Assembly (NCBI RefSeq): GCF_030682515.1
Contig: NZ_JAUXOD010000061.1
Span: forward strand, 1 to 34,784
Reading direction: 5' to 3'
From: Hoeflea sp.
Lineage (GTDB): Bacteria; Pseudomonadota; Alphaproteobacteria; Rhizobiales; Rhizobiaceae
DNA length: 34,784 nt
Under the pieces are notes generated by a model. That model saw only the letters and a list, made by a program, of their open reading frames with translations, was not told the origin of the DNA and did not search any database. Within the stretch, counting starts at the first letter, position 1; every line of letters starts with the position of its first letter. This document shows positions 2,123 to 34,784 of this stretch, one piece after another. The translations under genes were made by a program, and so were the position numbers.

Positions 2123-2184
2123 AGCGGGGATCTGGTATTTCATCCCAACCTGGTTCAGGTATGGGGCACAACAGGGAGACGATC

Positions 2185-3348
2185 ATGACCGCGATCACCG
2201 ATCTTGAGGGGCTGGAAGTGGGCTTCGGTATACCTGCCCTTCCCGGCATGGACGAGAGCAGCATCGAGACGCCGTGCCTCGTTCTCGATCTCGACGCGCT
2301 CGAGCGCAACATCATCCGGATGGGCCAGGAGGCGCGGGCCATGGGCGTGCGGCTCAGGGTCCATGGCAAGATGCACAAATCGGTCGACGTGGCCAAGCTG
2401 CAGGCACGGCTTGGCGGGGCCGACGGCGTCTGCTGCCAGAAGGTCTCGGAGGCGGAAGCCTTCGCCCGCGGCGGGATCCGCGACATCCTCGTCTCCAATC
2501 AGGTACGCGGCGCTGCCAAGGTCGAGCGGCTGGCGCGGCTCACGCGGTTCGGCGCGCGGATCGGCTGCTGCGTCGATGATCCCGACAACATCCCCGAGCT
2601 GTCGGCGGCGGCCGTCCGGCAAGGCGCGACGATCTTCTGCCTGGTCGAACTCGACTGCGGCGCGGGGCGCTGCGGCGTGTCGACGGCGCGGGAGGCGGTC
2701 GATCTCGCCCGGGCGATCATCGCCGCCCCGGGCCTCGAATTTGATGGCATCCAGGCCTACCAGGGCGCGATGCAGCACCTCGAACGCCATGACGCGCGCA
2801 AGGCCAAGTTCGAGGTTGCGGTGGCGCTGGCGCGGGAAACCGTCGCCGCGCTCGGCGAAGCCGGCATCGCCTGCGCCACGGTCACCGGCGGCGGTACCGG
2901 CTCCTACCGCCTCGAAGGGGCCTCTGGCGTCTACACCGAGCTGCAGTGCGGCTCCTACGCCTTCATGGACGCCGATTACGGGCGGGTGCTGGGCGAGGAC
3001 GGCCGGCGTCTCGACGAGGCCGGGTTCGAAAACGCGCTGTTCCTCCTGACCTCGGTGATGAGCCATGTCAAAGCCGATCGGGCGATCTGCGACGCGGGCC
3101 TCAAGGTGATGTCGGTCGACAGCGGCCTGCCGGTGGTCTTCGGCCGCGACGACGTCACCTACACGCAATGTTCCGACGAGCACGGAACGCTCGCCGATCC
3201 CGATGGCGTGCTCAGGGTCGGCGACAGGCTGCGACTGGTGCCGGGCCATTGCGACCCGACCTGCAACCTGCATGACTGGTATGTCGGCGTGCGCGGCGGC
3301 AAGGTCGAGTGCCTGTGGCCAGTTTCGGCGCGCGGCAAGGCCTATTGA
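2185..3348 (+). CDS. bhcC: 3-hydroxy-D-aspartate aldolase (BhcC/DhaA type, DSD1 family)
   Basis: This PLP enzyme of the D-threonine aldolase / D-serine dehydratase-like fold cleaves 3-hydroxyaspartate to glycine and glyoxylate. The 387-residue sequence closely follows the Paracoccus denitrificans enzyme known to me as DhaA/BhcC. It shares the N-terminal EVGFGIPALPGMDESSIETP, the PLP-lysine motif HGKMHKS (Lys62), VCCQKVSEAEAFARGGI, LDCGAGRCGVST, TELQCGSYAFMDADY, and the metal-site motif PGHCDPTCNLHDWYVGV near the C-terminus. The start at 2185 has GGGAGA upstream and gives exactly the family length; an in-frame ATG at 2161 would add eight residues without a better RBS. In the beta-hydroxyaspartate cycle this enzyme works with an aminotransferase, a dehydratase and an iminosuccinate reductase. 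None of those is next to it here. The gene symbol is therefore by similarity. Confidence 0.88.
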   Translation: MTAITDLEGLEVGFGIPALPGMDESSIETPCLVLDLDALERNIIRMGQEARAMGVRLRVHGKMHKSVDVAKLQARLGGADGVCCQKVSEAEAFARGGIRDILVSNQVRGAAKVERLARLTRFGARIGCCVDDPDNIPELSAAAVRQGATIFCLVELDCGAGRCGVSTAREAVDLARAIIAAPGLEFDGIQAYQGAMQHLERHDARKAKFEVAVALARETVAALGEAGIACATVTGGGTGSYRLEGASGVYTELQCGSYAFMDADYGRVLGEDGRRLDEAGFENALFLLTSVMSHVKADRAICDAGLKVMSVDSGLPVVFGRDDVTYTQCSDEHGTLADPDGVLRVGDRLRLVPGHCDPTCNLHDWYVGVRGGKVECLWPVSARGKAY

Positions 3349-3407
3349 GGCCCTGCATCACGATGAGATCGCCACCCGGTCCGTGCGCCAGAACCCGGGA
3401 CCTCGGC

Positions 3408-4148
3408 TTACAATCCCATGGCTTTCAGTTCCTGCAGCGGCGGGATGGTCTCGAACATATGCGGATCGAGGCGATCCCAAATGATCCCGCATGTCGGCTT
3501 GTGCGGATCGGCAACACTGATCGTGCGCGTGGGCGTGAAGATGACGTCGGCGACGGTGTCGTAGACATCGGGCGTCAACGTCTCGTCCAGAACCTGGCAA
3601 TCATGGACGACGGCAGCCGACGGCGTGGCGGCCGTGATGCGTCCGATCTGGTAGAGCATGCCCCATTCGGCATCGAAGAAGCCGTGCCCCTTGCCGAAGC
3701 GGACGCCCTCGTGATTGATCGCGCCGGTGCCCGTGACCATGTAGTCGATGGGCGGCATCTGGCTGATCTCCCTCAGGCTGACCGGCCTTGCGATCCTCTC
3801 CATGCCGTCCAGCGTCGAGGCGTAAAGATAGAGTTCCGGCGCGATGGTTTTCGGATCGAGGACCCAGAAGCCGCGCTTGATCGAATAGGTGGTCATCAGG
3901 ATGGTCTTGCCGTCGATCAGCGCCTGCAGGCGCAGGCGGTCGAGACAATTGTCCGGGGTAATGAAGATGAATTTCGAATTCCGGTAGAAGCTGTGCTCGG
4001 TCAGCCGTGCGACCGCTGCCTCGCCGCCCTCGAAATCGGCGATGAACTCGCCGAAATCGAAATGGAAACGACTGTCAGGAACGGCCACCTTGCGCAATTC
4101 GCTCCAGACGCGCTCGCGCACCGACGCCTTGTGATCGACGATATCCAT
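3408..4148 (-). CDS. 5-formyltetrahydrofolate cyclo-ligase-like protein, copy 1
   Basis: This 246-residue protein belongs to the 5-formyl-THF cyclo-ligase (MTHFS, COG0212) superfamily. The signature nucleotide/folate loop is visible at residues 148-159 as GVRFGKGHGFFD, matching the family GxGxGYYD pattern. Other family-like stretches are SKFIFITPDNCLDRLR, KRGFWVLDPK and AVVHDCQVLDE, followed by VADVIFTPTRTI. It is the last gene of the operon, starting 12 bases after the permease stop with GGGAG as RBS. It is clearly paralogous to the first gene of the same operon (7501-8238). A house-keeping cyclo-ligase is normally about 190-200 residues and not found with transporters, so this is more likely a specialised paralog. 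Members of COG0212 have been linked to thiamin metabolism by comparative genomics (from memory). The actual reaction is unknown. Confidence 0.8.
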   Translation of the reverse strand: MDIVDHKASVRERVWSELRKVAVPDSRFHFDFGEFIADFEGGEAAVARLTEHSFYRNSKFIFITPDNCLDRLRLQALIDGKTILMTTYSIKRGFWVLDPKTIAPELYLYASTLDGMERIARPVSLREISQMPPIDYMVTGTGAINHEGVRFGKGHGFFDAEWGMLYQIGRITAATPSAAVVHDCQVLDETLTPDVYDTVADVIFTPTRTISVADPHKPTCGIIWDRLDPHMFETIPPLQELKAMGL

Positions 4149-4160
4149 GATTGAACTCCC

Positions 4161-5735
4161 TTATTGAGCAGCGCGCATGCCACGGCGGGCAAGCACCGGC
4201 CGTTCGATCAGAACGACGCATTGATAGAAGACGACGGACAGAAGCACGGACACGACGGCGACGGCCCAGATCATTCCGTAGTCGAGATAGCCGCGGGACT
4301 GATTGAGCAGATTGCCCAGGCCTGTCCCGGTCGCCAGCCATTCGGCGATCATGACGCCCAGCAGCGCGCGCGGCACGGCGAGCCGGGTGGCGGCGAACAG
4401 ATAGGGCAGCGAAGCGGGAACCGAGACCAGCCGCAGTTGGGTGAACAGGCTGGCGCCATAGGCGCGCGGCACGTCGAGCGCGGCCCTGGGGACCATCGAC
4501 AGCCCCTGCGCCATGGTCACGAATGCGGGAAAGAAGGTGACCGAAATGGTGATCCAGAGGATGAGCGAGGGCCCTCGACCGAGGATAAGGACCAGTAGCG
4601 GGGTGAGCGCCACCAGCGGCATGGTCTGGGTGACCAGCGCCACCGGCATGAAGCCGCGGATGATGCCGGGCCTGAGCACCGACATCAGCGCAAGGCCGAA
4701 GGCAAAGGCGATCCCGAGCGCCATGCCGGCGATGGTCAGCGGCAGTGTCTGGCCCAGCGCCGCGAGCAGCTTCATCTGGGAGGCTTGCGAATTGGGCTGA
4801 AGAAACAGGTATTCAAACAGGCCAAGCGGCGTCTTGGCGATCATCGCCGGCGTGCCCATGGCGATGAGAAGCAGCCACCACAGGGCGATGGGGATGACGA
4901 CCGAGCCCGTGGACAGAAGAAGACGCAGCCAGAGCGGCCAGGACATGGTTGCGCCGCCCGGGGCGGTGGCCGGAACGGTCACGGCCTTGGTTGCTCCGGT
5001 AAAGCGCAGGGCGATCAGTGAAAAGACGGCATAGGCGAGGCCGGCGATCAGGGTTGCGGCCAGACCGATGCCCCAGAGCCTGTCCGGCTCGGCGCGTCCG
5101 AGCGAGCCGATCAGATAGACGCCCAGGCCATACCGCCCGCCGCCGCCGAATTCCGCAAGGATCGAGCCGAGTACCGCGTTGGGCGCGGCAATCCTGAGGC
5201 CTGAAAGGATCGCCGGCAGCGCCGAGCGCATCTGCGCCAGAACGAGGATCTTCCAGCGGCCGCCGCCATAGGCGCGGATGACTTCGATCATGCGCTGATC
5301 GGTCTGCGATATGCCGGTCACCGTCGACGACATGGTGACAAAATAGCAGCCGATGGCCGCCAGGATGATGCGCGGCGTCATGTCGGAGAATGTCAGGACG
5401 AGAAGCGGCGAGATGGCGATGGCGGGCAGTGCGAACAGTGCGATGTTGACGCCCCGCCCGAGCCTTGCCGCCATCGGAAACAGGGCAAACAGCACGCCGG
5501 CGGCGACCGCGATGCCATTGCCGATCAGGAAGCCGACCCCCGCCCCTTCCAGCGTCGCCAGAATGTGCGGCGGATAATCGGCGCGGTCGATCCACAGACG
5601 CATCAGGATGCTCGACGGCGCGGGCAACGCGCCGCTGGCGATCAACTGCAGCCGGCCGCAGATTTCCCAGATGATCAGCAGAACGAGCCAGGTGCGCAGG
5701 CTCGAACCGCGGGCCGCGATCGTCTCAGTGGCCAT
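4161..5735 (-). CDS. ABC transporter permease, tandem fusion of two BPD_transp_1 domains
   Basis: This 524-residue inner-membrane protein contains two SsuC/TauC-like permease domains in one chain. Each domain carries its own coupling (EAA) loop: residues 152-185 around VIRAYGGGRWKILV and residues 422-455 around VPRAYGASLFTQLRL. A short hydrophilic linker with ATAPGG lies near residues 255-265. Usual members of the family are about 250-280 residues and dimerise, so here both halves of the pore come from one gene. The start at 5735 overlaps the end of the ATPase gene by 11 bases, which suggests translational coupling. The operon also supplies one ATPase (5725-6495), one NMT1-type binding protein and two cyclo-ligase-like proteins. 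The substrate is unknown; a pyrimidine or thiamin-precursor type ligand is a hypothesis from the neighbours. Confidence 0.9.
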   Translation of the reverse strand: MATETIAARGSSLRTWLVLLIIWEICGRLQLIASGALPAPSSILMRLWIDRADYPPHILATLEGAGVGFLIGNGIAVAAGVLFALFPMAARLGRGVNIALFALPAIAISPLLVLTFSDMTPRIILAAIGCYFVTMSSTVTGISQTDQRMIEVIRAYGGGRWKILVLAQMRSALPAILSGLRIAAPNAVLGSILAEFGGGGRYGLGVYLIGSLGRAEPDRLWGIGLAATLIAGLAYAVFSLIALRFTGATKAVTVPATAPGGATMSWPLWLRLLLSTGSVVIPIALWWLLLIAMGTPAMIAKTPLGLFEYLFLQPNSQASQMKLLAALGQTLPLTIAGMALGIAFAFGLALMSVLRPGIIRGFMPVALVTQTMPLVALTPLLVLILGRGPSLILWITISVTFFPAFVTMAQGLSMVPRAALDVPRAYGASLFTQLRLVSVPASLPYLFAATRLAVPRALLGVMIAEWLATGTGLGNLLNQSRGYLDYGMIWAVAVVSVLLSVVFYQCVVLIERPVLARRGMRAAQ

Positions 5736-6495
5736 TGAGCGCCCCGGCGATTTCGTCCTCGAGCCGGTGAAATTCTGCACTGGTGAAGACGTCCGGTCCG
5801 CGAGGACGCATCAGGGGAATGTCGATGATCCGGGTGATCCGCCCCGGTTTGCTCTGCATGACGGCGACACGGTCGGCCAGAAACACCGCTTCATCGATGC
5901 CATGGGTGACGAGCAGCGTGGTGGCGCGGCTGGCTATCCAGATGCGCTGCAACTCGACATTCATCTGGCGGCGCAGGATCTGATCGAGCGCGCCGAATGG
6001 CTCGTCAAGAAACAGCACTTGCGGATTGGTCACCAGCGAACGGGCGATGGCGACACGCTGGCGCATGCCGCCGGACAGCTCGCCCGGCAAGGCCTTCTCG
6101 AAGCCCGCGAGGCCGACAAGGTCGATGAGGCTCGCGATCTTGGCGGCATTGTCCCGGCGCGGCTGACCCAGCACATCGAGCGGGAGAGCTATATTGTCCT
6201 CGACGCTGCGCCAGGGCATGAGCGCCGCATCCTGAAAGGCAACCCCGGTCATGCCGGCCCTTGCCGCGTCCATCGGCGCCAGCCCGGCAATCGAGACCTC
6301 CCCGGAATCGGCCTGGTCGAGCCCCAGCGCCAGCCGCAGCAGGGTGGATTTGCCGCAGCCGGAGGGACCGATCAGCGCGGTGAACGAACCCGCCGGGCAA
6401 TCCAGCGAGACATTGTCGAGCGCCTGCACGGTCGTGCCGCGCCCCTTGAAGGAGCGCGACACGGTGTCAAGCCTGATCCCGGATGGACCGGTCAT
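5725..6495 (-). CDS. ABC transporter ATPase (SsuB/TauB/ThiZ-like)
   Basis: This 256-residue cytoplasmic ATPase powers the uptake system of this operon. Walker A is GPSGCGKST (residues 43-51), the Q-loop lies in VAFQDAALMPWRS, the ABC signature is LSGGMRQRVAIAR from about residue 140, Walker B is VLFLDEPFGALD from about residue 160, and the switch His is in LLVTHGIDEA. The MPWRSV and HGIDEAVFLADRV stretches place it with the nitrate/sulfonate/taurine-type importers. It starts inside the stop of the binding-protein gene (ATGA overlap, 6492-6495) and its end overlaps the permease start, so the three genes are tightly coupled. As the permease is a fused pseudo-dimer, two copies of this single ATPase must serve two non-identical coupling loops. 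Confidence 0.93.
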   Translation of the reverse strand: MTGPSGIRLDTVSRSFKGRGTTVQALDNVSLDCPAGSFTALIGPSGCGKSTLLRLALGLDQADSGEVSIAGLAPMDAARAGMTGVAFQDAALMPWRSVEDNIALPLDVLGQPRRDNAAKIASLIDLVGLAGFEKALPGELSGGMRQRVAIARSLVTNPQVLFLDEPFGALDQILRRQMNVELQRIWIASRATTLLVTHGIDEAVFLADRVAVMQSKPGRITRIIDIPLMRPRGPDVFTSAEFHRLEDEIAGALNGH

Positions 6496-7466
6496 CCGAT
6501 TTCTTCGAGGACGGTGGTGTCGAAATGCTCGCGCTTGGCAGCAATGCCGACCGCCGCCAGCGCCTTGATATTGGCTGCGATGGCCTCCTCGCTCATCGAG
6601 AAGAACCCGCCATCGGTTTCCATCAGCGGCTGCTGCGCCGTGTTGAAATAGACTTCATTCTCGATGGAGCGGCCGGTGCCCTTGAACCAGGTGTCGGCGA
6701 GCGTTGCCGGATAGCCGGTCGGGTCCTTGAAATTCTCGATCCAGCCCTTGCGGCTGGCCTTGAGAAAGCCTGCGATTTCCTTGCGCTTGGTCTTCAGCGC
6801 CTCTTCGGTGACGACCACGGTGTCGTTGAAGATGGTGAAGCCGAAATCATAGAGCAGGAAGGACACGGCCTCGGCGCCGGACTGCTGGATGGTGAAGGGT
6901 ACGTTGGTGGTGAAGTCCAGGGAGGCGTCGATCTCCCCCTTGATCAGCGGCGTCGGGTCATAGGCGTAGGGCACGATGTTGACCTGGGCGCGGTCAACGC
7001 CCGAGATCTTGAGCATCGCCTCGACCGAAATGACGTTGACCGGCGGCACGGCCAGCGTCTTGCCGATCAGGTCTTTGGGTTCCATGATCGGATTCTTGGC
7101 CAGCGACACGATGCCGATCGGGTTCTTCTGGTACTGCGCGCCGATGATCTTGAACGGTGCGCCCTGCTCGACAATCGCCTTGATCGTGGTGTCGGGGGTT
7201 GTCAGCGTCAGGTCCGCCTTGCCGGTGATGATGGTGCTTTCGGGGATCACATCCGGGCCGCCGGAGAAGTAGGTGACGTCCAGCCCTTCGTCCTTGTAGT
7301 AGCCTTTGTCGATGGCGAGAAAATACCCCATGAATTCGGCGTCGTTGATCCAGGCTGCCTGGAAATTGAAAGGCGTTGCGGCATGGGCATGGCGGCCCAT
7401 CGCCGGAAAGGCGGCTGTCGCCCCCAGGAGCCCGAGGAAGCGGCGTCTGTCGATGGTGAGGTTCAT
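6492..7466 (-). CDS. ABC transporter substrate-binding protein, NMT1/THI5-like, Tat-exported
   Basis: This 324-residue periplasmic binding protein has a twin-arginine signal: DRRRFLGLLG at residues 6-15, followed by a hydrophobic stretch and a probable cleavage after HAHA. The mature protein begins ATPFNFQAAWINDAEFMGYF, and AIDKGYYKDEGLDVTYFSGG is the characteristic start of the NMT1/THI5 / SsuA-like fold. The ITGKADLTLTTPDTTIKAIVEQGAPFKIIG region follows the same pattern as pyrimidine-, sulfonate- and nitrate-binding relatives. It lies 34 bases after the first cyclo-ligase-like gene and overlaps the ATPase gene by four bases. The fold is shared by binders of thiamin pyrimidines (ThiY), sulfonates and aromatic compounds, so the ligand is not settled by sequence alone. 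Confidence 0.9.
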   Translation of the reverse strand: MNLTIDRRRFLGLLGATAAFPAMGRHAHAATPFNFQAAWINDAEFMGYFLAIDKGYYKDEGLDVTYFSGGPDVIPESTIITGKADLTLTTPDTTIKAIVEQGAPFKIIGAQYQKNPIGIVSLAKNPIMEPKDLIGKTLAVPPVNVISVEAMLKISGVDRAQVNIVPYAYDPTPLIKGEIDASLDFTTNVPFTIQQSGAEAVSFLLYDFGFTIFNDTVVVTEEALKTKRKEIAGFLKASRKGWIENFKDPTGYPATLADTWFKGTGRSIENEVYFNTAQQPLMETDGGFFSMSEEAIAANIKALAAVGIAAKREHFDTTVLEEIG

Positions 7467-7500
7467 TGGTTCGTTCCCTGTTTATGGTGGTGGCAATGGT

Positions 7501-8238
7501 TCATGCGACTCCGCGCATGCGGGCAAGCTCCCGCAAGGGCGGCATTTCCTGAATTTCCTGGGCCGTCAGGAGATCCCACTTCATGCCGCGCGGGCGGCGC
7601 TCCTGGCGCTCGACCCGGATCAGGCGGCTTGGCGTGGCGATGAAATCGACGGGAATGTCGGTGGCGTTCATCTGCAGATGATCCTCGACGACCTGCACAT
7701 CATGAACGATCGCGGCGACCGGGGTCGTGTCCATGGCAAGGCCCAGATCGGTGAACATGCCCCATTCCAGATCGAAGAACCCGTGACCCTTGCCGAAGCG
7801 GACCCCATCTGCCGACACCGCCGAGGCCCCGGTCGCCATCAGGTCGAAACGTCCGAGACCGGCGATCTCTTCAAGCGTGACCGGCCGGGCGAAATGCTCG
7901 ATCCCGTCAAGCCAGGCTGCATAATGCTCTGCCCCCTCGGGCACCGCATCCGGCGCGATATAGAGAAAGCCGCGCTGGATGTTGTAGGTGGCCGTCACCA
8001 GCGGCACCCGCTGGACGATCAGCCGACGGCGCAGCTCCGTCATCGAATTGTCGGGCGTGACGAAGGCGAGCTGGCAGGCCTGATAGGCAGGCAGCGCGCA
8101 GATGCGGTCTGTCGCAGCCTCCACGCCCTCGAAATCCGGAATAAAGTCGGCAAACTGCATGTGAAAGCGCGTGTCGGGCCGCGCGACATTTTTCAACCGG
8201 TCCCAGATGCGTTGGCGTGTGAGGCGAGAAGTGGACAT
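7501..8238 (-). CDS. 5-formyltetrahydrofolate cyclo-ligase-like protein, copy 2
   Basis: This 245-residue paralog of the protein at 3408-4148 is the first gene of the operon. The two align over their whole length: RPDTRFHMQFADFIPDFEG here matches VPDSRFHFDFGEFIADFEG there, and both share TPDN, the FGKGHGFFD loop (residues 145-156 here) and a C-terminal MPPLRELARM / IPPLQELKAM segment. This copy has SVSADGVRFGKG-type conservation around the loop but differs in the middle (MATYNIQRGFLYIAP-like region). The start at 8238 is the first ATG and has no strong RBS. It lies directly behind the palindromic operator at 8251-8286, so it is expressed first from the operon promoter. Function is unknown beyond the superfamily. 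Confidence 0.8.
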   Translation of the reverse strand: MSTSRLTRQRIWDRLKNVARPDTRFHMQFADFIPDFEGVEAATDRICALPAYQACQLAFVTPDNSMTELRRRLIVQRVPLVTATYNIQRGFLYIAPDAVPEGAEHYAAWLDGIEHFARPVTLEEIAGLGRFDLMATGASAVSADGVRFGKGHGFFDLEWGMFTDLGLAMDTTPVAAIVHDVQVVEDHLQMNATDIPVDFIATPSRLIRVERQERRPRGMKWDLLTAQEIQEMPPLRELARMRGVA

Positions 8239-26699: not shown

Positions 26700-27700
<1,001 letters not shown>

Positions 27701-27767
27701 CCCCTCCCGTTGTGTCTCGTCATCACGATAGAATGTCAATCCTTCTCGTGTCAACAGGCAAAATGGA

Positions 27768-27780
27768 TTGTACTGTGCAA
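27768..27780. promoter_or_regulatory. Near-palindrome upstream of the dehydratase/lyase operon
   Basis: TTGTACTGTGCAA is a 13-base palindrome with a single mismatched pair. It lies about 150 bases before the MBL gene start, in the gap left by the truncated ligase. Its form fits a GntR- or IclR-type operator. No regulator gene is adjacent. Confidence 0.35.
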
Positions 27781-27872
27781 TACGATATGCGGGATCCGGC
27801 CGCCTCTTCGCGCAGGATCGGCGCATCATAAAGGCCTCGGGTAATGTTATCTAATGAAACCATTTTTGCGTA

Positions 27873-27930: not shown

Positions 27931-28857
27931 ATGACAACTTTCAAAGTTGGCAATGTCACCATCCGCCGGATCGAGGAAGTGCTGGAACTCGGGTATCCGC
28001 CCGAATTCATGCTTGTCGGCTTCGATCCCGCGATGCTGGCCCGCCACCCCGTCGCCGCCGACAGCCGGTTCTACGACAAGGCCAGCGGCCGCTCCTGGAG
28101 CAGCATTCATTCCTGGCTCCTCGAGATCGACGGCAAGAAAATCCTGATCGACACCTGCTCGGGCAACGGCAAGGCGCGGGCGCTGCCGATCTTCCAGCGC
28201 TTTCACATGCTCGACCTGCCCTATCTCGACAATCTCGCCGACGCGGGCGTCTCGCCGGAAGACATCGACATCGTCTTCTGCACGCATCTGCACATTGACC
28301 ATGTCGGCTGGAACACGCGCCGCGACGGCGACAACTGGGTGCCGACCTTCCCCAATGCGCGCTATATCTTCGGCCGCGGCGAATACGAGCACTGGACCGG
28401 CGACGGCAAGGGGCCCGTGGTGTTTCCCGACAACGCCGCCGTCATCGATGACAGCGTGGCTCCGATCGCCGATGCCGGCATGATGGAGCTGATCAATGCC
28501 GGCGAGGAGATCGTGCCGGGGCTTCGCGTCGAAGCCGCGCCGGGGCACACGATGGACCAGCTGATCGTCAAATATGACTCCGACGACGGCAGCTTCGTCA
28601 TCTCGGCCGATGTCCTGCACCATCCCGTCCAGGTCTACGAGCCGTTCATCACCAGCCGGTTCTGCGAGTATCCGGACCTGGCCGAAAAGACACGGCGCGA
28701 CCTGCTCGCCTATTGCGCCGACCGCGATGCGCTGCTGCTGCCGATGCATTTCGGCGCGCCGCATGCGGGCCGCGTGGCGCGCACTTCGACCGGATATGAA
28801 TTTGTGCCGGAAGCGGCAGACGAAGCACCTGCCAGCCTGAAAATGATGCGATCCTGA
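27931..28857 (+). CDS. MBL-fold metallo-hydrolase
   Basis: This 308-residue protein has the metallo-beta-lactamase fold. The metal motif HxHxDH is intact as THLHIDHVGW (His119, His121, Asp123, His124). Further ligands lie in EAAPGHTMDQLIV and SADVLHHP. The Cys-containing segment ILIDTCSGNG precedes the motif, as in lactonase-like members. GGAGGAG lies seven bases before the ATG at 27931; an earlier in-frame ATG (27883) has no RBS. It is the first gene of the operon with the aconitase-like pair and lyase. A role as a lactonase, or a thioesterase releasing an acid for the next enzyme, would fit; neither is shown by the sequence. Confidence 0.88.
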   Translation: MTTFKVGNVTIRRIEEVLELGYPPEFMLVGFDPAMLARHPVAADSRFYDKASGRSWSSIHSWLLEIDGKKILIDTCSGNGKARALPIFQRFHMLDLPYLDNLADAGVSPEDIDIVFCTHLHIDHVGWNTRRDGDNWVPTFPNARYIFGRGEYEHWTGDGKGPVVFPDNAAVIDDSVAPIADAGMMELINAGEEIVPGLRVEAAPGHTMDQLIVKYDSDDGSFVISADVLHHPVQVYEPFITSRFCEYPDLAEKTRRDLLAYCADRDALLLPMHFGAPHAGRVARTSTGYEFVPEAADEAPASLKMMRS

Positions 28858-28927
28858 CCGCGCCACGTGCCCAAAGCACCGTGCCGGACCGGGACGCAAG
28901 ACTGCCAAGATAAGGAAGCAAGAGACC

Positions 28928-30184
28928 ATGGGCTATACGATCACCGAGAAGATCCTCGCACGGGTATCGGGTCTTGACCATGTCAAGGCAGGCGACGAGG
29001 TCATGGCCAAGCCCGACTTCATCACGGCCTATGATTTCCCCGGCTACACCGACGTCTATTTCAAGCAGATGAAGGAGGATTTCGGCATCGAGCGCGTGGC
29101 CGAGCCCGAGCGTATCGCCATGTTCATCGATCACATGGTGCCCGCCGCCACGCCCAAGGAAGAAGAGCTGCATATCGTCACCCGCAAGTGGTGCGCGGAA
29201 AACAACGTGCCGCTGTTCGAGCGCAAGGGCATCGGCCACCAGGTGGCGTCCGAAGTGGGCTATGCTGTGCCCGGCGCCTTCGTGGTTCATTTTGATGGCC
29301 ACATCAGCCAGTTGGGCACCTTCGGGACGCTCGCGATGGGCATCCGCCGCAACCTGCTCGAGGCGCTGGTCAACGAGAAGATCTCGATCAAGGTGCCTCA
29401 TACGGTGCGCGTCAACCTGACCGGCACGCTGTCCAAGGGCGTGCTGGCGCGCGACGTATTCCACCATCTCGTCCGCGAGATGGGTCCGGCCTCATGCCGG
29501 TTCCAGGTGCTGGAACTGGGCGGCCCCGGCATGGCCCAGCTGACGACCGAGGGACTGCAGACCATCACCGGGCTTGCCATGTTCACCGGCGCCGTCACCG
29601 CGATAGTCAATCCGGACCAGGCGCGGCTCGACTACGCCCTGCCCCGCGCCCGCAAGAAGCTCGAGCCGGTCTACAGCGACGCGGATGCCGACTACGCCAA
29701 GGTCTACGAGATCGACCTCGACGCGCTCGAGCCTCTGATCGTGATCCCGCCGACGCCCGCCAACTCGCGCAATCTCAGCGAATATCTGGGGCTCGAGCTC
29801 ACCAACGGCTATCTCGGCTCCTGCGCCTCGGGGCGGCTCGAGGATCTCGAGATCGCCGCGCGGATCCTGCAGGGCAAGCAGGTGGCGCCGGGCTTCCAGC
29901 TCAACGTGGTGCCCACCAGCAACGAGATCATGGTGGCGGCCAGCCGCGCCGGCTATCTCGCCACCCTGACCGAAGCCGGGGCCTTTGTCTCGGCGCCGAG
30001 CTGCGACTATTGCTTCGGCCGCATGGGCGCCATGTCGGCCAACCAGCGCGCGGTGTCGACCGGCACGCTCAATGTGCGCGGCCGCATGGGCAGCCCGGAC
30101 TCCGAAATCTATCTGTGCAGCGCGGCCACGGTCGCTGCATCCGCGTTGGAAGGCAAGATCGCCGATCCACGCAAGTATCTGTGA
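28928..30184 (+). CDS. Aconitase/LeuC-like hydro-lyase, large subunit
   Basis: This 418-residue protein belongs to the [4Fe-4S] aconitase superfamily. The cluster Cys residues are C299 (GSCASGRLEDL) and C359/C362 (PSCDYCFGRMG). The GIGHQ motif (101-105) and the Asp/His pair D123/H125 (HFDGHISQLGTFGTLAMGI) are present, though LeuC proteins normally read GDSHTSTHGAFG there. It therefore looks catalytically able but is divergent from leucine biosynthesis enzymes. The small subunit gene follows after 10 bases, and a PEP-mutase-family lyase after that. The order matches the dimethylmaleate hydratase / dimethylmalate lyase pair of Eubacterium barkeri, so hydration of a substituted maleate is a reasonable hypothesis. 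True LeuC is unlikely. Confidence 0.82.
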   Translation: MGYTITEKILARVSGLDHVKAGDEVMAKPDFITAYDFPGYTDVYFKQMKEDFGIERVAEPERIAMFIDHMVPAATPKEEELHIVTRKWCAENNVPLFERKGIGHQVASEVGYAVPGAFVVHFDGHISQLGTFGTLAMGIRRNLLEALVNEKISIKVPHTVRVNLTGTLSKGVLARDVFHHLVREMGPASCRFQVLELGGPGMAQLTTEGLQTITGLAMFTGAVTAIVNPDQARLDYALPRARKKLEPVYSDADADYAKVYEIDLDALEPLIVIPPTPANSRNLSEYLGLELTNGYLGSCASGRLEDLEIAARILQGKQVAPGFQLNVVPTSNEIMVAASRAGYLATLTEAGAFVSAPSCDYCFGRMGAMSANQRAVSTGTLNVRGRMGSPDSEIYLCSAATVAASALEGKIADPRKYL

Positions 30185-30194
30185 GGATTTGGAC

Positions 30195-30710
30195 ATGGCG
30201 TTGGAAAACCTGCGCGGGCGCGTGGCCTTCATCTTCGAGGAAATCAATTTCGACGTGGATCAGATCGTCGGTGTGAAGAACATCAAGATCACCGACATCG
30301 ACGAACTCGCCGCCGCCGCCATGCAGTCCTACGATCCGGATTTCCGCAGTGTCGTGCGGCCGGGGGACCTGCTCGTGGGCGCCGACAATTTCGGCTACGG
30401 CCACCCGCATTACCCGCCGATGCGCGCCATGCGCCACATCGGCATCGCCGGCGTGCTGGCGGAATCATTTTCACCGGGATACTGGCGCGGCGAAATCTCG
30501 ATGGGATTCCCGCAGGCCACCTGCCCCGGGATCCTGGGCCTGGTCGAGCGCTGGGACGAGATCGAGATCGACTGGGCCGCCAACGAAGTGCGCAACCTCA
30601 CCAAGGGCGGCAGCCTGCCGATCGATCCGCTGTCGAACGCGGACCGCGCCATGCTCGATGCCGGCGGCCTGATTGGCTATCTCCAGGGCAAGCGGCAACC
30701 CGCGGCCTGA
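30195..30710 (+). CDS. LeuD-like hydro-lyase small subunit with altered active-site loop
   Basis: This 171-residue partner of the preceding large subunit has the swivel domain. GRVAFIFEEINFDVDQIVGVKNI matches the LeuD start (GxxxxFGDNVDTDxIIP), and RPGDLLVGADNFGYGHPHYPP (residues 56-75) matches the NFGxGSSREHAP loop. However, the Ser-Ser-Arg of that loop, which in aconitase includes the catalytic Ser and the Arg that binds the substrate carboxylate, is replaced by His-Pro-His. ESFSPGYWRGEISMGFPQATC follows the usual SFARIFYRNAINIGLP pattern. GAGG lies before the ATG at 30195. The loop change suggests a different substrate or mechanism. Confidence 0.82.
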   Translation: MALENLRGRVAFIFEEINFDVDQIVGVKNIKITDIDELAAAAMQSYDPDFRSVVRPGDLLVGADNFGYGHPHYPPMRAMRHIGIAGVLAESFSPGYWRGEISMGFPQATCPGILGLVERWDEIEIDWAANEVRNLTKGGSLPIDPLSNADRAMLDAGGLIGYLQGKRQPAA

Positions 30711-30735
30711 ATCCCCTCAAGAACAGGATTTCTCC

Positions 30736-31605
30736 ATGTCCCACGGACCAAGCAACGACTATCGCGACCGCGTTCTGGCGCAGCAGACCGTGTGGGCCGC
30801 CGGCGCCTATGACGCATTCTCAGCCAAGATGATCGAGCGCGCAGGGTTTGACGCGGTCATGACCAGCGGCTTTGGCGTGTCGGCGTCGCTGCTCGGCATG
30901 CCCGATGCCGAACTCTACACCATGACCGAGAATGCGGGTGTCGTCCGCAATGTCGCCAATGCGGTCAAGATCCCGGTGATCGCCGACATGGACACGGGCT
31001 ACGGCAATGCCATCAACGTCATGCGTTCGGTCCGGGAATTCGAGAGTGCCGGCACCTCGGCCATCATCATGGAAGACCAGATGGCGCCCAAGCGCTGCCC
31101 GATCTGCGTGAGCGGCGTGGAGACCATCGGCATGGAGGAAGCGGTCAAGAAGATCGAGGCGGCGGTGGAAGCGCGGCGCAACCCCAACATGCTGATCATC
31201 GCCCGCACCGATGTGGATACTGTCCCCGAAGCCATTCGTCGCGCCAAGGCCTATGTCGCCGCCGGCGCCGACGTGATCCAGCCGATCAGCAACACGTTCA
31301 AGGATCTCGACGGGCTGAAGACGCTGCGCAAGGAAACCGGCGTGCCGCTGTCGCTGCAGATTCTGGGCTGGCTCGAACGCGACCTGACGCCCGAGCAGAT
31401 CGCAAGCGTGGCCGGCATGGCGACCTTCGCCCTGGTGCCGCTGATGACGGCGGCCGCGGCGCTCGAGAAGAACCTCGCACAGCTGGCGCGCGACAAGACA
31501 TCAAGGAACCTCCCGCTCGAGCGCATGGATCATCACCAGTTCATCGACCTGATCGGCTTCCCCGAGATCGAGCAGCTGCAGCTCAGGTTCCTCGAGCAGG
31601 CGTGA
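30736..31605 (+). CDS. Isocitrate lyase/PEP mutase-family lyase (dimethylmalate lyase-like)
   Basis: This 289-residue (beta/alpha)8 enzyme of the PEP mutase/isocitrate lyase superfamily probably splits a 2-hydroxy-dicarboxylate. AAGAYDAFSAKMIERAGFDAV, the metal-site IADMDTGYGNAINVMRSVREFESAG (D84, D86), IIMEDQ (residues 110-115) and IIARTD are family hallmarks. The catalytic loop KRCGH of methylisocitrate and dimethylmalate lyases appears as KRCPI: Cys121 is kept, Gly-His is lost. AGGA precedes the ATG at 30736, 25 bases after the small-subunit gene. Products in the closest pathway model would be pyruvate and propionate (from 2,3-dimethylmalate). Oxaloacetate hydrolase or methylisocitrate lyase activity are alternatives. 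Confidence 0.83.
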   Translation: MSHGPSNDYRDRVLAQQTVWAAGAYDAFSAKMIERAGFDAVMTSGFGVSASLLGMPDAELYTMTENAGVVRNVANAVKIPVIADMDTGYGNAINVMRSVREFESAGTSAIIMEDQMAPKRCPICVSGVETIGMEEAVKKIEAAVEARRNPNMLIIARTDVDTVPEAIRRAKAYVAAGADVIQPISNTFKDLDGLKTLRKETGVPLSLQILGWLERDLTPEQIASVAGMATFALVPLMTAAAALEKNLAQLARDKTSRNLPLERMDHHQFIDLIGFPEIEQLQLRFLEQA

Positions 31606-31815
31606 TCTTGCCGGCGTTCGGAGCGGTCCGGTCGGCGCCAGGCCAGACGGACCGGCGCCGGTGACGTGAGGACGGCAACGCTCGTCTCCCGCTTCCGGCC
31701 GCAACCGCCCTGCAGGGTAGCCTCGCTGGCACGGGGCCATGGGACGAATAAGACTTGCCCGGAGCTCGCGGTATGGTAGTGACGCGCGGTCTGCTATCTC
31801 CATCAGGTCACAAGA
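31606..31815. other. Gap between the lyase and MFS genes
   Basis: This 210-base gap holds GC-rich partial inverted repeats (GGCGCC near 31634 and near 31653) but no T-tract terminator and no supported small gene. Whether the MFS gene belongs to the operon is therefore open. Confidence 0.4.
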
Positions 31816-32943
31816 ATGAAGCCGCACCAGAGGATTTTCTTTACTCAGTTCGCGGTGGCCGTCTGCCTGGCAGCACTTTTGGCGCGCCTGCCGGACATTC
31901 AAATCGACTTCGGATTGAGCGAAGGGCAACTCGGACTGCTGCTGCTTTGCCTGTCCGCGGGCGTGCTTTCGGGCCTCACCTTTTCAGTGCCGGTCATAGA
32001 GAGGCTCGGGGCCCGAACCTCAGCGTATCTGTCCGTTTTCGGAACGTCGATACTGCTGGCTTTCGTCCCCTCCATGCCCTCCGCCTCGCTCGCCGCCGTC
32101 CTGCTGTTCGGCTCGGGCCTCTTTCTCGGCATGTTCGAAGTCAACTCCAACATTGAGACGGACCGGCACGAGGCGGTGCTGGGTTACCGGATCATGAGCA
32201 GAGCCCACGGACTCTGGAGTGTCGGGTTCTTCCTGTCCGCACTGGCGGCCGCCGGGTTCCGGCACTTTGCGGTCAGCGTCGAACTCCACATGGCCATCGT
32301 CGTCCTCTCCATTCTGTCTGTTGCGGCGGTTATCTTCTCCAGGATCGAGAACGCGCCGTTGCGGGCGTACAGTCAGGTCGGCATCCAGCCGCTCATTGCG
32401 CTGCCGACTCTGGCCATGCTGCCGCTTTGCCTGATCGGCGCGGCACCGCTGTTTGCCGAAGGCGCGAGCGTGGATTGGTCGGCGATCTACATGCGCGACG
32501 TGTTCGCCGTAGCACCCTTCACCGGCGGTCTGGCGCCGGCCATTTTCTCGTTTTCCATTGCTGCCGGCCGGCTCCTCATGGACCCGGTGGTGGATCGCTA
32601 CAATTCGCAGAATGTCGCGGTCACGCTGTTGGCCGTGACGGCTGCGGGCCTGGTGATCGTCGCCACGGCGGCACATGAATATGTCGCGCTCGCCGGGTTC
32701 GGGCTGATCGGGATCGGATGCTCGTCGGTCTACCCGCTGGCCATTTCAGCCGCCGCCCAGCGGACTGACAGACCCGGCGCGATCAATGTCGCAGCGCTGA
32801 GCCAGACCACATTCGTCGTCTTCTTCCTGGGACCGCCACTTCTGGGGTTTGCGGCGGAACATTTCGGGGTTCGAACATCCTACTGGCTGGTCGTTCCCGT
32901 CGTGTTGTCGGCCATGCTGGTCACGAAGACCTTGAGCCGGTAG
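31816..32943 (+). CDS. MFS transporter (YbjJ-like)
   Basis: This 375-residue membrane protein shows about twelve hydrophobic helices in two bundles, as in the major facilitator superfamily. The N-terminal QFAVAVCLAALLARLPDIQIDFGLSEGQLGLLLL and VIERLGART loop follow the pattern of the YbjJ-like MFS group. The middle loop SRIENAPLRAYSQVG separates the halves. SVDWSAIYMRDVF and AAGRLLMDPVVDRYN are further group-typical stretches. No strong RBS precedes the ATG at 31816. It follows the dehydratase/lyase operon in the same direction and may move its substrate, but that is only inferred from position. Confidence 0.85.
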   Translation: MKPHQRIFFTQFAVAVCLAALLARLPDIQIDFGLSEGQLGLLLLCLSAGVLSGLTFSVPVIERLGARTSAYLSVFGTSILLAFVPSMPSASLAAVLLFGSGLFLGMFEVNSNIETDRHEAVLGYRIMSRAHGLWSVGFFLSALAAAGFRHFAVSVELHMAIVVLSILSVAAVIFSRIENAPLRAYSQVGIQPLIALPTLAMLPLCLIGAAPLFAEGASVDWSAIYMRDVFAVAPFTGGLAPAIFSFSIAAGRLLMDPVVDRYNSQNVAVTLLAVTAAGLVIVATAAHEYVALAGFGLIGIGCSSVYPLAISAAAQRTDRPGAINVAALSQTTFVVFFLGPPLLGFAAEHFGVRTSYWLVVPVVLSAMLVTKTLSR

Positions 32944-32972: not shown

Positions 32973-33668
32973 TCAGCCGAGATAGGCTGCGAGCACTTCC
33001 GGGTTTTCGCGCAGGGCCTGCGGGTTGCCCTCGACGACGATCTCGCCGCGCTTGATGACGTAGCCATAGTCGCAGACCGACAGCGCGATTGCCGCGTTCT
33101 GCTCGACCACGAGGATGGTCTGGCCCTGCTTGTTCAGCGCCACGATGGCCTCGAACACCACGTCGACAAGGGAGGGTGCGAGCCCCATCGACGGCTCGTC
33201 GAGCAGCAGCACCCGCGGCTCGGTCATCAGCGCCCGGCCGATCGCCAGCATCTGCTGTTCGCCGCCGCTGAGAAGGCCCGATGGCTGGGTGCGCCGTTCC
33301 TTGAGCCGCGGGAACAGGTCGAAGACGCGGGCGAGCGTGTCGCCGGTTCCCTTGCGGCCGGAAAACCGGCTCAGCATCAGGTTTTCCTCCACCGTCAGCG
33401 GCGCCACCACCATGCGGCCTTCCGGCACCAGCGCCAGGCCGGCCCTCACCACATTGTGCAGCGCGAGCTTGGAGATGTTCCTGCCGTCGAGCATCACGCT
33501 GCCGCCGATCGGGCGATGCAGGCCCGCGATGGAGCGCAGCGTGGTGGACTTGCCTGCGCCGTTCGACCCCAGGATGACGCTGAGCGAGCCAGATGCGACC
33601 GTCAGGTTGATACCCTGGACCGCGCGAATGGCGCCGTAGCTGGCGGTGAGATCAGTGACCGAGAGCAT
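32973..33668 (-). CDS. livF: Branched-chain amino-acid-type ABC transporter ATPase LivF
   Basis: This 231-residue ATPase is of the LivF type. Walker A is GSNGAGKST, the signature is LSGGEQQMLAIGRAL, and Walker B is RVLLLDEPSMGLAP. PEGRMVVAPLTVEENLML and LVVEQNAAIALSVCDYGYVI are characteristic of the group. The ATG at 33668 lies inside the end of livG (17-base overlap); the longer frame from 33701 is less likely. In this family the substrates range from leucine and amides to urea and aromatic acids, so the symbol is by family only. The binding-protein gene is not in the window. Confidence 0.92.
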   Translation of the reverse strand: MLSVTDLTASYGAIRAVQGINLTVASGSLSVILGSNGAGKSTTLRSIAGLHRPIGGSVMLDGRNISKLALHNVVRAGLALVPEGRMVVAPLTVEENLMLSRFSGRKGTGDTLARVFDLFPRLKERRTQPSGLLSGGEQQMLAIGRALMTEPRVLLLDEPSMGLAPSLVDVVFEAIVALNKQGQTILVVEQNAAIALSVCDYGYVIKRGEIVVEGNPQALRENPEVLAAYLG

Positions 33669-34446
33669 CGCGCTTCTTTCCGAAATAGGCAGTCTGGACA
33701 TCGGGATTGTCGATGCAGCTCCGGGGCGTGCCCTCGGCCAGCAGTTGCCCGAAATTGATGACGGTGCAGGTCTCGCAGAACTCGGTCACCAGGCTGATAT
33801 TGTGCTCGACCATCAGGATGGTCAGGCCGCTGTCGCGCAGCTCGTGCACCAGCTTGCCGATGTCGCTCGCCTCGGCGTGGTTCATGCCCGCCGTCGGCTC
33901 GTCGAGCAGCAGCAGCTTCGGATCGGAGCCGAGCGCGCGGGCGATCTCGATGCGCCGCTGCTCGCCATAGGAGAGCGTTTCCGCGAGCTCATTGGCGCGG
34001 TCGGCCATGCCGACGCGCTCGAGGAGATGCATCGCAGTGGCGCGCGAGGCCTTCCATTTCCGCCGCGCATCGGCGGTTCCCAGGAAGGAGGCGAACAGGC
34101 TGGTGCCCCGACCGAGATAGCAGCCGGTCAGCACCTGCTCGAGCACAGACATGCCGCTGAACAGCCGCACATTCTGGTAGGTCCGGCTGATGCCCAGGGC
34201 AGCGATCTGGTGCGGCTCGAGCGTGTCGGTGCGCTTGCCCTCGAACAGGATCTCGCCGCTCGACACATCGAACAGGCCGGTGATCAGGTTGATGACCGTG
34301 GTCTTGCCTGCGCCATTGGGGCCGATCAGGCCATGCACGGTGCCCTTGGTAACCGTCATCGACAGGTTGTTGACCGCGGTGACGCCGCCGAACTGCTTGA
34401 CCACGTTGCGGAGTTCGTGAAGCACGGTGCCTTCTGGACTAGTCAT
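33652..34446 (-). CDS. livG: Branched-chain amino-acid-type ABC transporter ATPase LivG
   Basis: This 264-residue partner ATPase has Walker A GPNGAGKTT, the LivG-typical GISRTYQNVRLFSGMSVLEQVLTG, the signature LSYGEQRRIEIARAL, Walker B LLLLDEPTAGMN and the switch region ILMVEHNISLV. It starts at 34446, overlapping the livM stop by eight bases, and ends inside livF. The three genes are thus one transcription unit running leftwards. The extra segment between LGRGTSLFASFLGTADARRK and the signature is normal for LivG. Confidence 0.93.
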   Translation of the reverse strand: MTSPEGTVLHELRNVVKQFGGVTAVNNLSMTVTKGTVHGLIGPNGAGKTTVINLITGLFDVSSGEILFEGKRTDTLEPHQIAALGISRTYQNVRLFSGMSVLEQVLTGCYLGRGTSLFASFLGTADARRKWKASRATAMHLLERVGMADRANELAETLSYGEQRRIEIARALGSDPKLLLLDEPTAGMNHAEASDIGKLVHELRDSGLTILMVEHNISLVTEFCETCTVINFGQLLAEGTPRSCIDNPDVQTAYFGKKRDALGH

Positions 34447-34784
34447 GGGCCTGTCCTGTCGTGGTGCGCGCATGCTTGTGCGCGGCGTCGAACTCCGCCT
34501 GCGCCGCCTGCTGGCGCTGGCGCGCGGCCTTGCGAAGCCCGCGAGCGCGCGGATCGATCAGCCCGCGCGGCAGATAGATCATGATCACCAGCAGAACGAT
34601 GCCCTTGGCGATGTCCTGGATCTCGGGCAGCACGGCCTGGGTGATGGTCGGCAGCGCCGTGAACACGAAGGCGCCGACGATCGGGCCGAACCAGAAGAAG
34701 GAGCCGCCGAGCACGGTCGAGGCGATCATGGTGAAGGCCACGCCAAGGTAGAACGTGTCGGCCGAGATATATTGCAGCGTCGTG
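34439..34784 (-). CDS. livM: Branched-chain amino-acid-type ABC permease LivM, 5' end outside the window
   Basis: The last 114 codons of a LivM-type inner-membrane permease are visible and the frame is open to the window edge. TLQYISADTFYLGVAFTMIASTVLGG and FGPIVGAFVFTALPTITQAVLPEIQDIAKGIVLLVIMIYLPRGLI are the conserved C-terminal helices. A long charged tail (about 40 residues, RKAARQRQQAAQAEFDAAHK) follows and is longer than usual. Its stop overlaps the livG start. Confidence 0.9.
   Translation of the reverse strand, partial: TTLQYISADTFYLGVAFTMIASTVLGGSFFWFGPIVGAFVFTALPTITQAVLPEIQDIAKGIVLLVIMIYLPRGLIDPRARGLRKAARQRQQAAQAEFDAAHKHARTTTGQAHD

Follow-up and report, generated by a model that had tools for sequence, protein, structure and literature searches.

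The stretch of DNA analysed here (the window) comprises all 34784 bases of contig C19 from the 4.67 Mb genome of a Hoeflea sp.; near its end it carries a short gene set in which two proteins related to the large and small subunits of isopropylmalate isomerase (LeuC-like and LeuD-like) are followed by a carbon-carbon lyase of the phosphoenolpyruvate (PEP) mutase/isocitrate lyase (ICL) type. Judging from the residues and the gene order, these two subunits probably (at a probability of roughly 0.7) form a distinct subfamily within the superfamily of aconitase and isopropylmalate isomerase, which has its own PEP-mutase/ICL-type lyase and would serve in the degradation of a small acid. The unusual feature is a remodelled aconitase-type active site that is coupled to a remodelled lyase. 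The genes concerned, and those beside them, are as follows.

27931 to 28857, + strand: hydrolase of the metallo-beta-lactamase (MBL) fold, 308 amino acids (aa), likely a lactonase or esterase
28928 to 30184, + strand: LeuC-like large subunit of an aconitase-type hydro-lyase, 418 aa, with three cluster cysteines kept and DSH changed to DGH
30195 to 30710, + strand: LeuD-like small subunit, 171 aa, with the GSSRE loop changed to GHPHYP (residues 69-74)
30736 to 31605, + strand: PEP-mutase/ICL-type carbon-carbon lyase, 289 aa, with the loop PKRCPICVSG as against PKRCGH
31816 to 32943, + strand: transporter of the major facilitator superfamily (MFS), 375 aa, probably an insertion outside the unit
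32973 to 33701, - strand: convergent LivF-type ATPase of an ATP-binding cassette (ABC) transporter, 95% identical to the gene at the same position in Hoeflea marina (locus L043)
33652 to 34473, - strand: LivG-type ABC ATPase, 92% identical to that of L043
34439 to 34784, - strand: C-terminal part of a LivM permease, truncated at the contig end

The order of the first five genes had been proposed in an earlier, sequence-only reading, and it is confirmed by the open reading frames and the family matches; that reading is likewise supported in that an alphaproteobacterium has hydratase and lyase genes in a conserved order, preceded by the gene of a hydrolase. The intergenic gaps measure 70 bp between the MBL and LeuC genes, 10 bp between LeuC and LeuD, 25 bp between LeuD and the lyase, and 210 bp between the lyase and the MFS gene. 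The MBL translation, which carries an HLHIDH motif, matches Lactamase_B of Pfam (70.7 bits) and, in the PDB, an organophosphorus hydrolase (4le6, 1.5e-19) and a dihydrocoumarin-hydrolase/lactonase ancestor (5hif, 1.4e-15), while its score with the YtnP lactonase model (60.2 bits) is far under the cut-off of 425. The large subunit matches Aconitase at 214.6 bits and stays below the cut-offs of PRK00402 (360.9 bits; cut-off 385) and LEU2 (289.5; 610.65), and the small subunit, for which a Pfam search at 1e-3 returned no family, stays below those of the NCBIfam models LEUD_arch (96.8; 108.95) and leud (71.7; 245.85). The lyase, on the other hand, exceeds the PEP_mutase cut-off (151.2 bits; 31.5), carries the DMDTGYG, EDQ, KRC and ARTD motifs of the PEP-mutase/ICL superfamily, and has 5unc (6.8e-39) and 3eoo (5.6e-38) among its PDB matches; its best NCBIfam model is prpB, whose cut-off of 354.4 bits it misses with a score of 178, which leaves it outside the methylisocitrate lyase equivalog. 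The MFS protein matches MFS_1 (58.9 bits). Given the low ratios of nonsynonymous to synonymous substitution (dN/dS) relative to H. marina, of 0.043 for LeuC, 0.046 for LeuD, 0.054 for the lyase and 0.13 for the MBL gene, these four genes are under purifying selection.

The active sites were compared by aligning the large subunit to 4nqy, 4kp2 and 1b0k and the small subunit to 3vba, 1v7l and 2pkp, together with outgroups. According to PMC8184944, the Ser-Ser-Arg loop of the small subunit or swivel domain supplies the general base in aconitase and its characterised relatives; in mitochondrial aconitase this base is the serine of the loop. The alignment of the small subunit to its three structures is gap-free across this loop, and the GHPHYP motif, with the Ser642-type catalytic serine replaced, was found in 103 of 103 clade small subunits examined (16 from the search of the host's order, seven from plasmids and 80 from the scan described below, some of them duplicates or near-duplicates, the later members from the class search standing outside this count). 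Each of its residues, G69, H70, P71, H72, Y73 and P74, is invariant across 31 aligned sequences. For comparison, the 16 other LeuD-like proteins tabulated have GSSRE in 12 cases, GSGRP in one, HHNHVE in two (Roseomonas) and HHSHPHA in one.

In the large subunit, the SCAS and SCDYC motifs align with the three cluster cysteines of mitochondrial aconitase, as would be expected of a superfamily member. The sequence further preserves the Asp-His pair of IDH, the GIGH histidine, both Asp and His in DxH, and a single arginine (GRMG). On the other hand, DSH has become DGH, the N and E of NMxxE have become G and F, and NR has become TL. The isopropylmalate/citramalate isomerases (4nqy/4kp1 for the large subunit and 3vba for the small one) therefore share with the clade the fold family, the division into subunits, an alignment of nearly full length, the three cysteines and the Asp-His motifs, but they retain GSSRE, DSH, the N and E of NMxxE, and NR. 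By this alignment, about ten of the 20 active-site residues of mitochondrial aconitase are kept (D100, H101, H147, D165, H167, C358, C421, C424, R452 and D568), with the positions of Q72 and R580 uncertain in this count. The clade thus falls short of the more than 15 of 20 residues that are identical in six family members according to PMC8184944. Aconitase X, a dehydratase of cis-3-hydroxyproline or phosphomevalonate, also departs from the classical chemistry of the superfamily, of which it forms a branch, but it retains the catalytic serine (Ser70 of AtAcnX, according to the same source), which the clade has lost.

In a quick tree, made without bootstrap, the clade occupies one side of a branch with 102 rows and SH-aLRT values of 98-99, and some rows, L041 among them, sit on long branches. 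The lyases that accompany these rows have a KRCP-type loop in 90 cases (KRCP, with the variants KRCA and KSCP), GGKHT in eight, KKCG in one (L082) and no lyase in three, while the 12 rows with GSSRE, all of them from the host's order, have a lyase of the KRCG or KKCG type in eight cases and none within the stretch read in four. The clade lyase shares with PrpB and the PEP-mutase superfamily the barrel family, the KRC of the catalytic loop, DMDTGYG and EDQ, and differs in having KRCP where PrpB has KRCGH. The nine clade rows that have DPH in place of DGH form a single nested group, of which eight carry the GGKHT lyase and the ninth, L092, has no lyase. Seen on this tree, the types of hydratase and lyase travel together. 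A lyase that changes alongside the hydratase site, as it does in this nested group, would be expected if the two enzymes shared a substrate, but the change occurred only once. A more specific proposal, for which we consider the balance to be about even, is that the His-Pro-His-Tyr loop replaces Ser-Ser-Arg, with a His or Tyr residue, or a metal held by His-x-His, abstracting the proton, and that this site coevolved with the remodelled lyase in an undescribed route.

The distribution of the gene set was followed by scanning a collection that has one genome for each species with two peptide patterns. This gave 257 candidate stretches, and the 80 best of them were retained and examined. The search for the same gene order elsewhere, which the sequence-only reading had recommended, found LeuD directly after LeuC in 80 of 80 loci and the lyase next to it in 73, a conservation that exceeds chance. 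In four loci (L072, L106, L118 and L119) the lyase lies elsewhere in the stretch; in L096 it is truncated where the contig stops, in L107 it lies beyond that point, and in the stretch of L092 it was searched for and not found. The clade spans alpha-, beta- and gammaproteobacteria and one Rhodococcus plasmid, and the nearest LeuC relatives in the one-genome-per-species collection belong to Hoeflea (98% and 97% identity). Within the host's order, the small subunit is present at an identity of at least 66% in 16 of 297 genomes, the next matches reaching at most 36%; within the class, it is present in eight of 385, with no score between 239 and 108 bits; and the unit's LeuC occurs in four of 18 genomes of the genus, five more having a distant LeuC only. 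Given this patchiness at all three levels, the unit is accessory. A literature search, covering titles and the beginnings of abstracts, turned up no paper on this gene set.

Two loci merit separate mention. The clade genes at L144:6662-9375 are a second copy in their genome and adjoin a Dpp-like ABC transporter, and in a Polaromonas plasmid (L038:9001-10255) LeuC is split over two frames and LeuD is intact.

The presence counts for the remaining genes, which include loci on short contigs, are 33 of 80 for the MBL gene, 29 for a flavoprotein (28 having both together), 50 for an IclR regulator and 38 for LivF/LivG at an identity of at least 58%. In H. marina (L043), the MBL, LeuC, LeuD and lyase genes are followed, on the opposite strand, by LivF, LivG, LivM, LivH, LivK and IclR, and then by the flavoprotein. 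The flavoprotein of these units matches FAD_binding_4, diverges at its C-terminus and resembles GlcD (92 bits; cut-off 568). The window stops inside LivM. The rest is found at the end of another host contig, C12, which carries the flavoprotein, IclR, LivK, LivH and the initial 194 codons of LivM; these are 89.5-93.6% identical to their H. marina counterparts, and the host therefore possesses the full set. Two Azospirillum plasmids and one Variovorax plasmid have a single run of divergent IclR, MBL, flavoprotein, LeuC, LeuD, lyase and Liv genes.

Close relatives conserve a Liv-type ABC system as the transporter of the unit, and the MFS transporter, which the sequence-only reading had counted as a member of the operon, does not keep company with it. 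The MFS gene was rejected as a member given the gap of 210 bp and the lack of any gene between the lyase and LivF in H. marina, and its best homologues in the three other carriers of the same genus reach only 26-31% identity; it probably lies outside the unit as an insertion. Directly upstream of the MBL gene, at 26700-27829 on the - strand, there is a remnant of an AMP-forming acyl-CoA (coenzyme A) ligase in two overlapping frames, apparently without its N-terminal part.

In the pathway that we infer, in which the presence of the cluster and the direction and chemistry of each step are all putative, the Liv-type ABC transporter would import a small organic acid, either as such or in lactone form, the MBL hydrolase would open the lactone or ester, and the GlcD-like flavoprotein (encoded on C12 in the host) would oxidise a hydroxyl group. 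The LeuC/LeuD pair would then add, remove or move water, with a [4Fe-4S] cluster as the Lewis acid and with His70, His72 and Tyr73 of the small subunit occupying the positions of aconitase Ser642, Arg644 and a neighbour, and the lyase would cleave what results, with a 2-oxo acid and a smaller acid as the most likely fragments. The degraded acid may arrive as a lactone; the pointer to a lactone or ester comes from the kinship of the MBL protein to lactonases and organophosphorus hydrolases, from an SMP-30 gene that adjoins the lyase in L103, and from a different MBL gene ahead of LeuC in L100. The scheme of hydrolase, hydratase and lyase that had been suggested from the sequence is plausible in outline, and its likeness to the dimethylmaleate module is supported no further than this outline.

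Several observations weigh against this reading. The DGH count is partly so by construction, given that VHFDGH[IV]S served as a search pattern; with the serine gone, the pair could serve some purpose other than hydration; the exchange of the lyase for the GGKHT type happened once; and two loci break the pairing, namely L082, where the lyase that accompanies GHPHYP is of the KKCG type, and L092, which lacks a lyase. No MBL gene was found in 47 of the 80 loci at the threshold used, short contigs included, and other branches use tripartite ATP-independent periplasmic (TRAP), tripartite tricarboxylate (TTT), Dpp-like or MFS transporters, for which reasons entry as a lactone may be confined to a single branch. 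In other branches, furthermore, an unassigned protein and Hyu genes point to nitrogen heterocycles rather than lactones.

The neighbour sets do indeed vary, from Liv and Dpp-like ABC systems to TRAP, TTT and MFS transporters. Three Pseudomonas loci have a CoA-ligase set, and L063 has both Hyu and Rieske genes; there are Rieske or TauD oxygenases in other branches, and Hyu-type (cyclic-amide hydrolase/carboxylase) genes in seven of the 80 stretches. The inference of a substrate from the neighbours was dropped, and no substrate is concluded, because these genes disagree between branches. The hydratase and the lyase are the common core, and the front ends vary. The unassigned protein, highly conserved and of 477-541 aa, occurs in seven of the 80 loci (L101:3750-5204, L076, L079, L097, L112, L114 and L117) and had no match in Pfam, NCBIfam or PDB sequence searches. 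Its AlphaFold model is of low confidence (mean pLDDT 49.7), and the eight Foldseek matches at E<=0.001, all of them 2,5-dihydroxypyridine dioxygenase or M29 aminopeptidases, have a TM of about 0.3 and an rmsd above 10; the model points to a NicX/M29 fold. Of the three genomes in 289 of the class that hold this protein, one, G580, possesses a small subunit of the clade, G361 gave a match at 90 bits only, and G400 is absent among the clade small-subunit matches listed for the class, so that the protein is only loosely tied to the clade.

Among the other explanations, the one that survives best, although it is improbable, is a dehydratase for a polyhydroxy (sugar-type) mono-acid freed from a lactone, with the lyase acting as an aldolase. 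The loss of the residues that bind carboxylates in aconitase would suit such a substrate, as would the SMP-30 gene of L103, the GlcD-like flavoproteins, and an FAH protein in L039 that scores 442 bits with a didehydro-deoxy-rhamnonate hydrolase model (cut-off 500); however, no sugar-acid gene set was recognised, and the TRAP and TTT transporters elsewhere rather suggest other carboxylates.

The module to which the genes had first been likened is that of Eubacterium barkeri, in which dimethylmaleate hydratase and 2,3-dimethylmalate lyase likewise place a hydratase before an ICL-type lyase. A 2,3-dialkylmaleate would be hydrated to the dialkylmalate and then cleaved, for example to propionate and pyruvate, and we regard this as unlikely here. 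The same two enzyme superfamilies are adjacent, and the unassigned protein (in spite of its poor model and its loose link to the clade) and the Hyu genes, each in seven of 80 loci, would fit maleate-like breakdown products of nitrogen heterocycles. What stands of the likeness, which was drawn to the E. barkeri enzymes by description and not by sequence, is the general shape of a hydratase and then a lyase; the Ser-Ser-Arg loop, several residues of the large-subunit site and the KRCGH loop are absent, and the canonical GSSRE/KRCGH modules found in the host's order would suit the dimethylmaleate-type model better.

Slightly less probable still is a hydratase of maleate or a substituted maleate with the lyase as an add-on, similar to HbzIJ, the maleate hydratase of the gentisate route. 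In L038 and L092 an FAH-family gene immediately precedes LeuC, and L039 has one close to it; the gene that follows LeuD in L092 scores best with models of aromatic-acid transporters, under their cut-offs, but no gentisate dioxygenase was seen among the annotated products and the few proteins scanned there, where no systematic search was made. Finally, a housekeeping isopropylmalate isomerase, citramalate isomerase or methylcitrate enzyme mistaken for a catabolic one is very improbable, even though the nearest solved relatives are isopropylmalate/citramalate isomerase subunits, prpB is the best NCBIfam model of the lyase and the lyase of the window finds only itself in the host at 1e-20, given that every curated NCBIfam cut-off is missed, that LeuC-, LeuD- and aconitase-type genes of its own exist separately in the host, along with two further PEP_mutase-family matches above the cut-off, and that the distribution within the genus is as patchy as described (four of 18 genomes).

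Other LeuD-like proteins without the catalytic serine, which have HHNHVE or HHSHPHA in its place, were noted at L122:7001-7534, L123:7001-7540 and L030:1459-1977. The two Roseomonas genes with HHNHVE come after an aconitase-family large subunit that keeps the three cysteines and has EGN at the usual DSH, and a TTT gene lies upstream of the pair. Elsewhere in the window, at 2161-8238, two alike proteins of 245-246 aa, which presumably resemble 5-formyltetrahydrofolate cyclo-ligase, flank genes that look by eye like those of a NitT/TauT ABC transporter and a gene similar, again by eye, to alanine racemase/threonine aldolase.

The small subunit is labelled "3-isopropylmalate dehydratase" in five of five annotated plasmid records, and such annotation hides the small subunits of the clade. 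If the reading preferred here, of a distinct hydratase subfamily with its own lyase, is true, there would be a widespread pathway, present in as many as 257 candidate stretches, without a known substrate, and the base that is held to be common to the aconitase-type enzymes would be replaceable.

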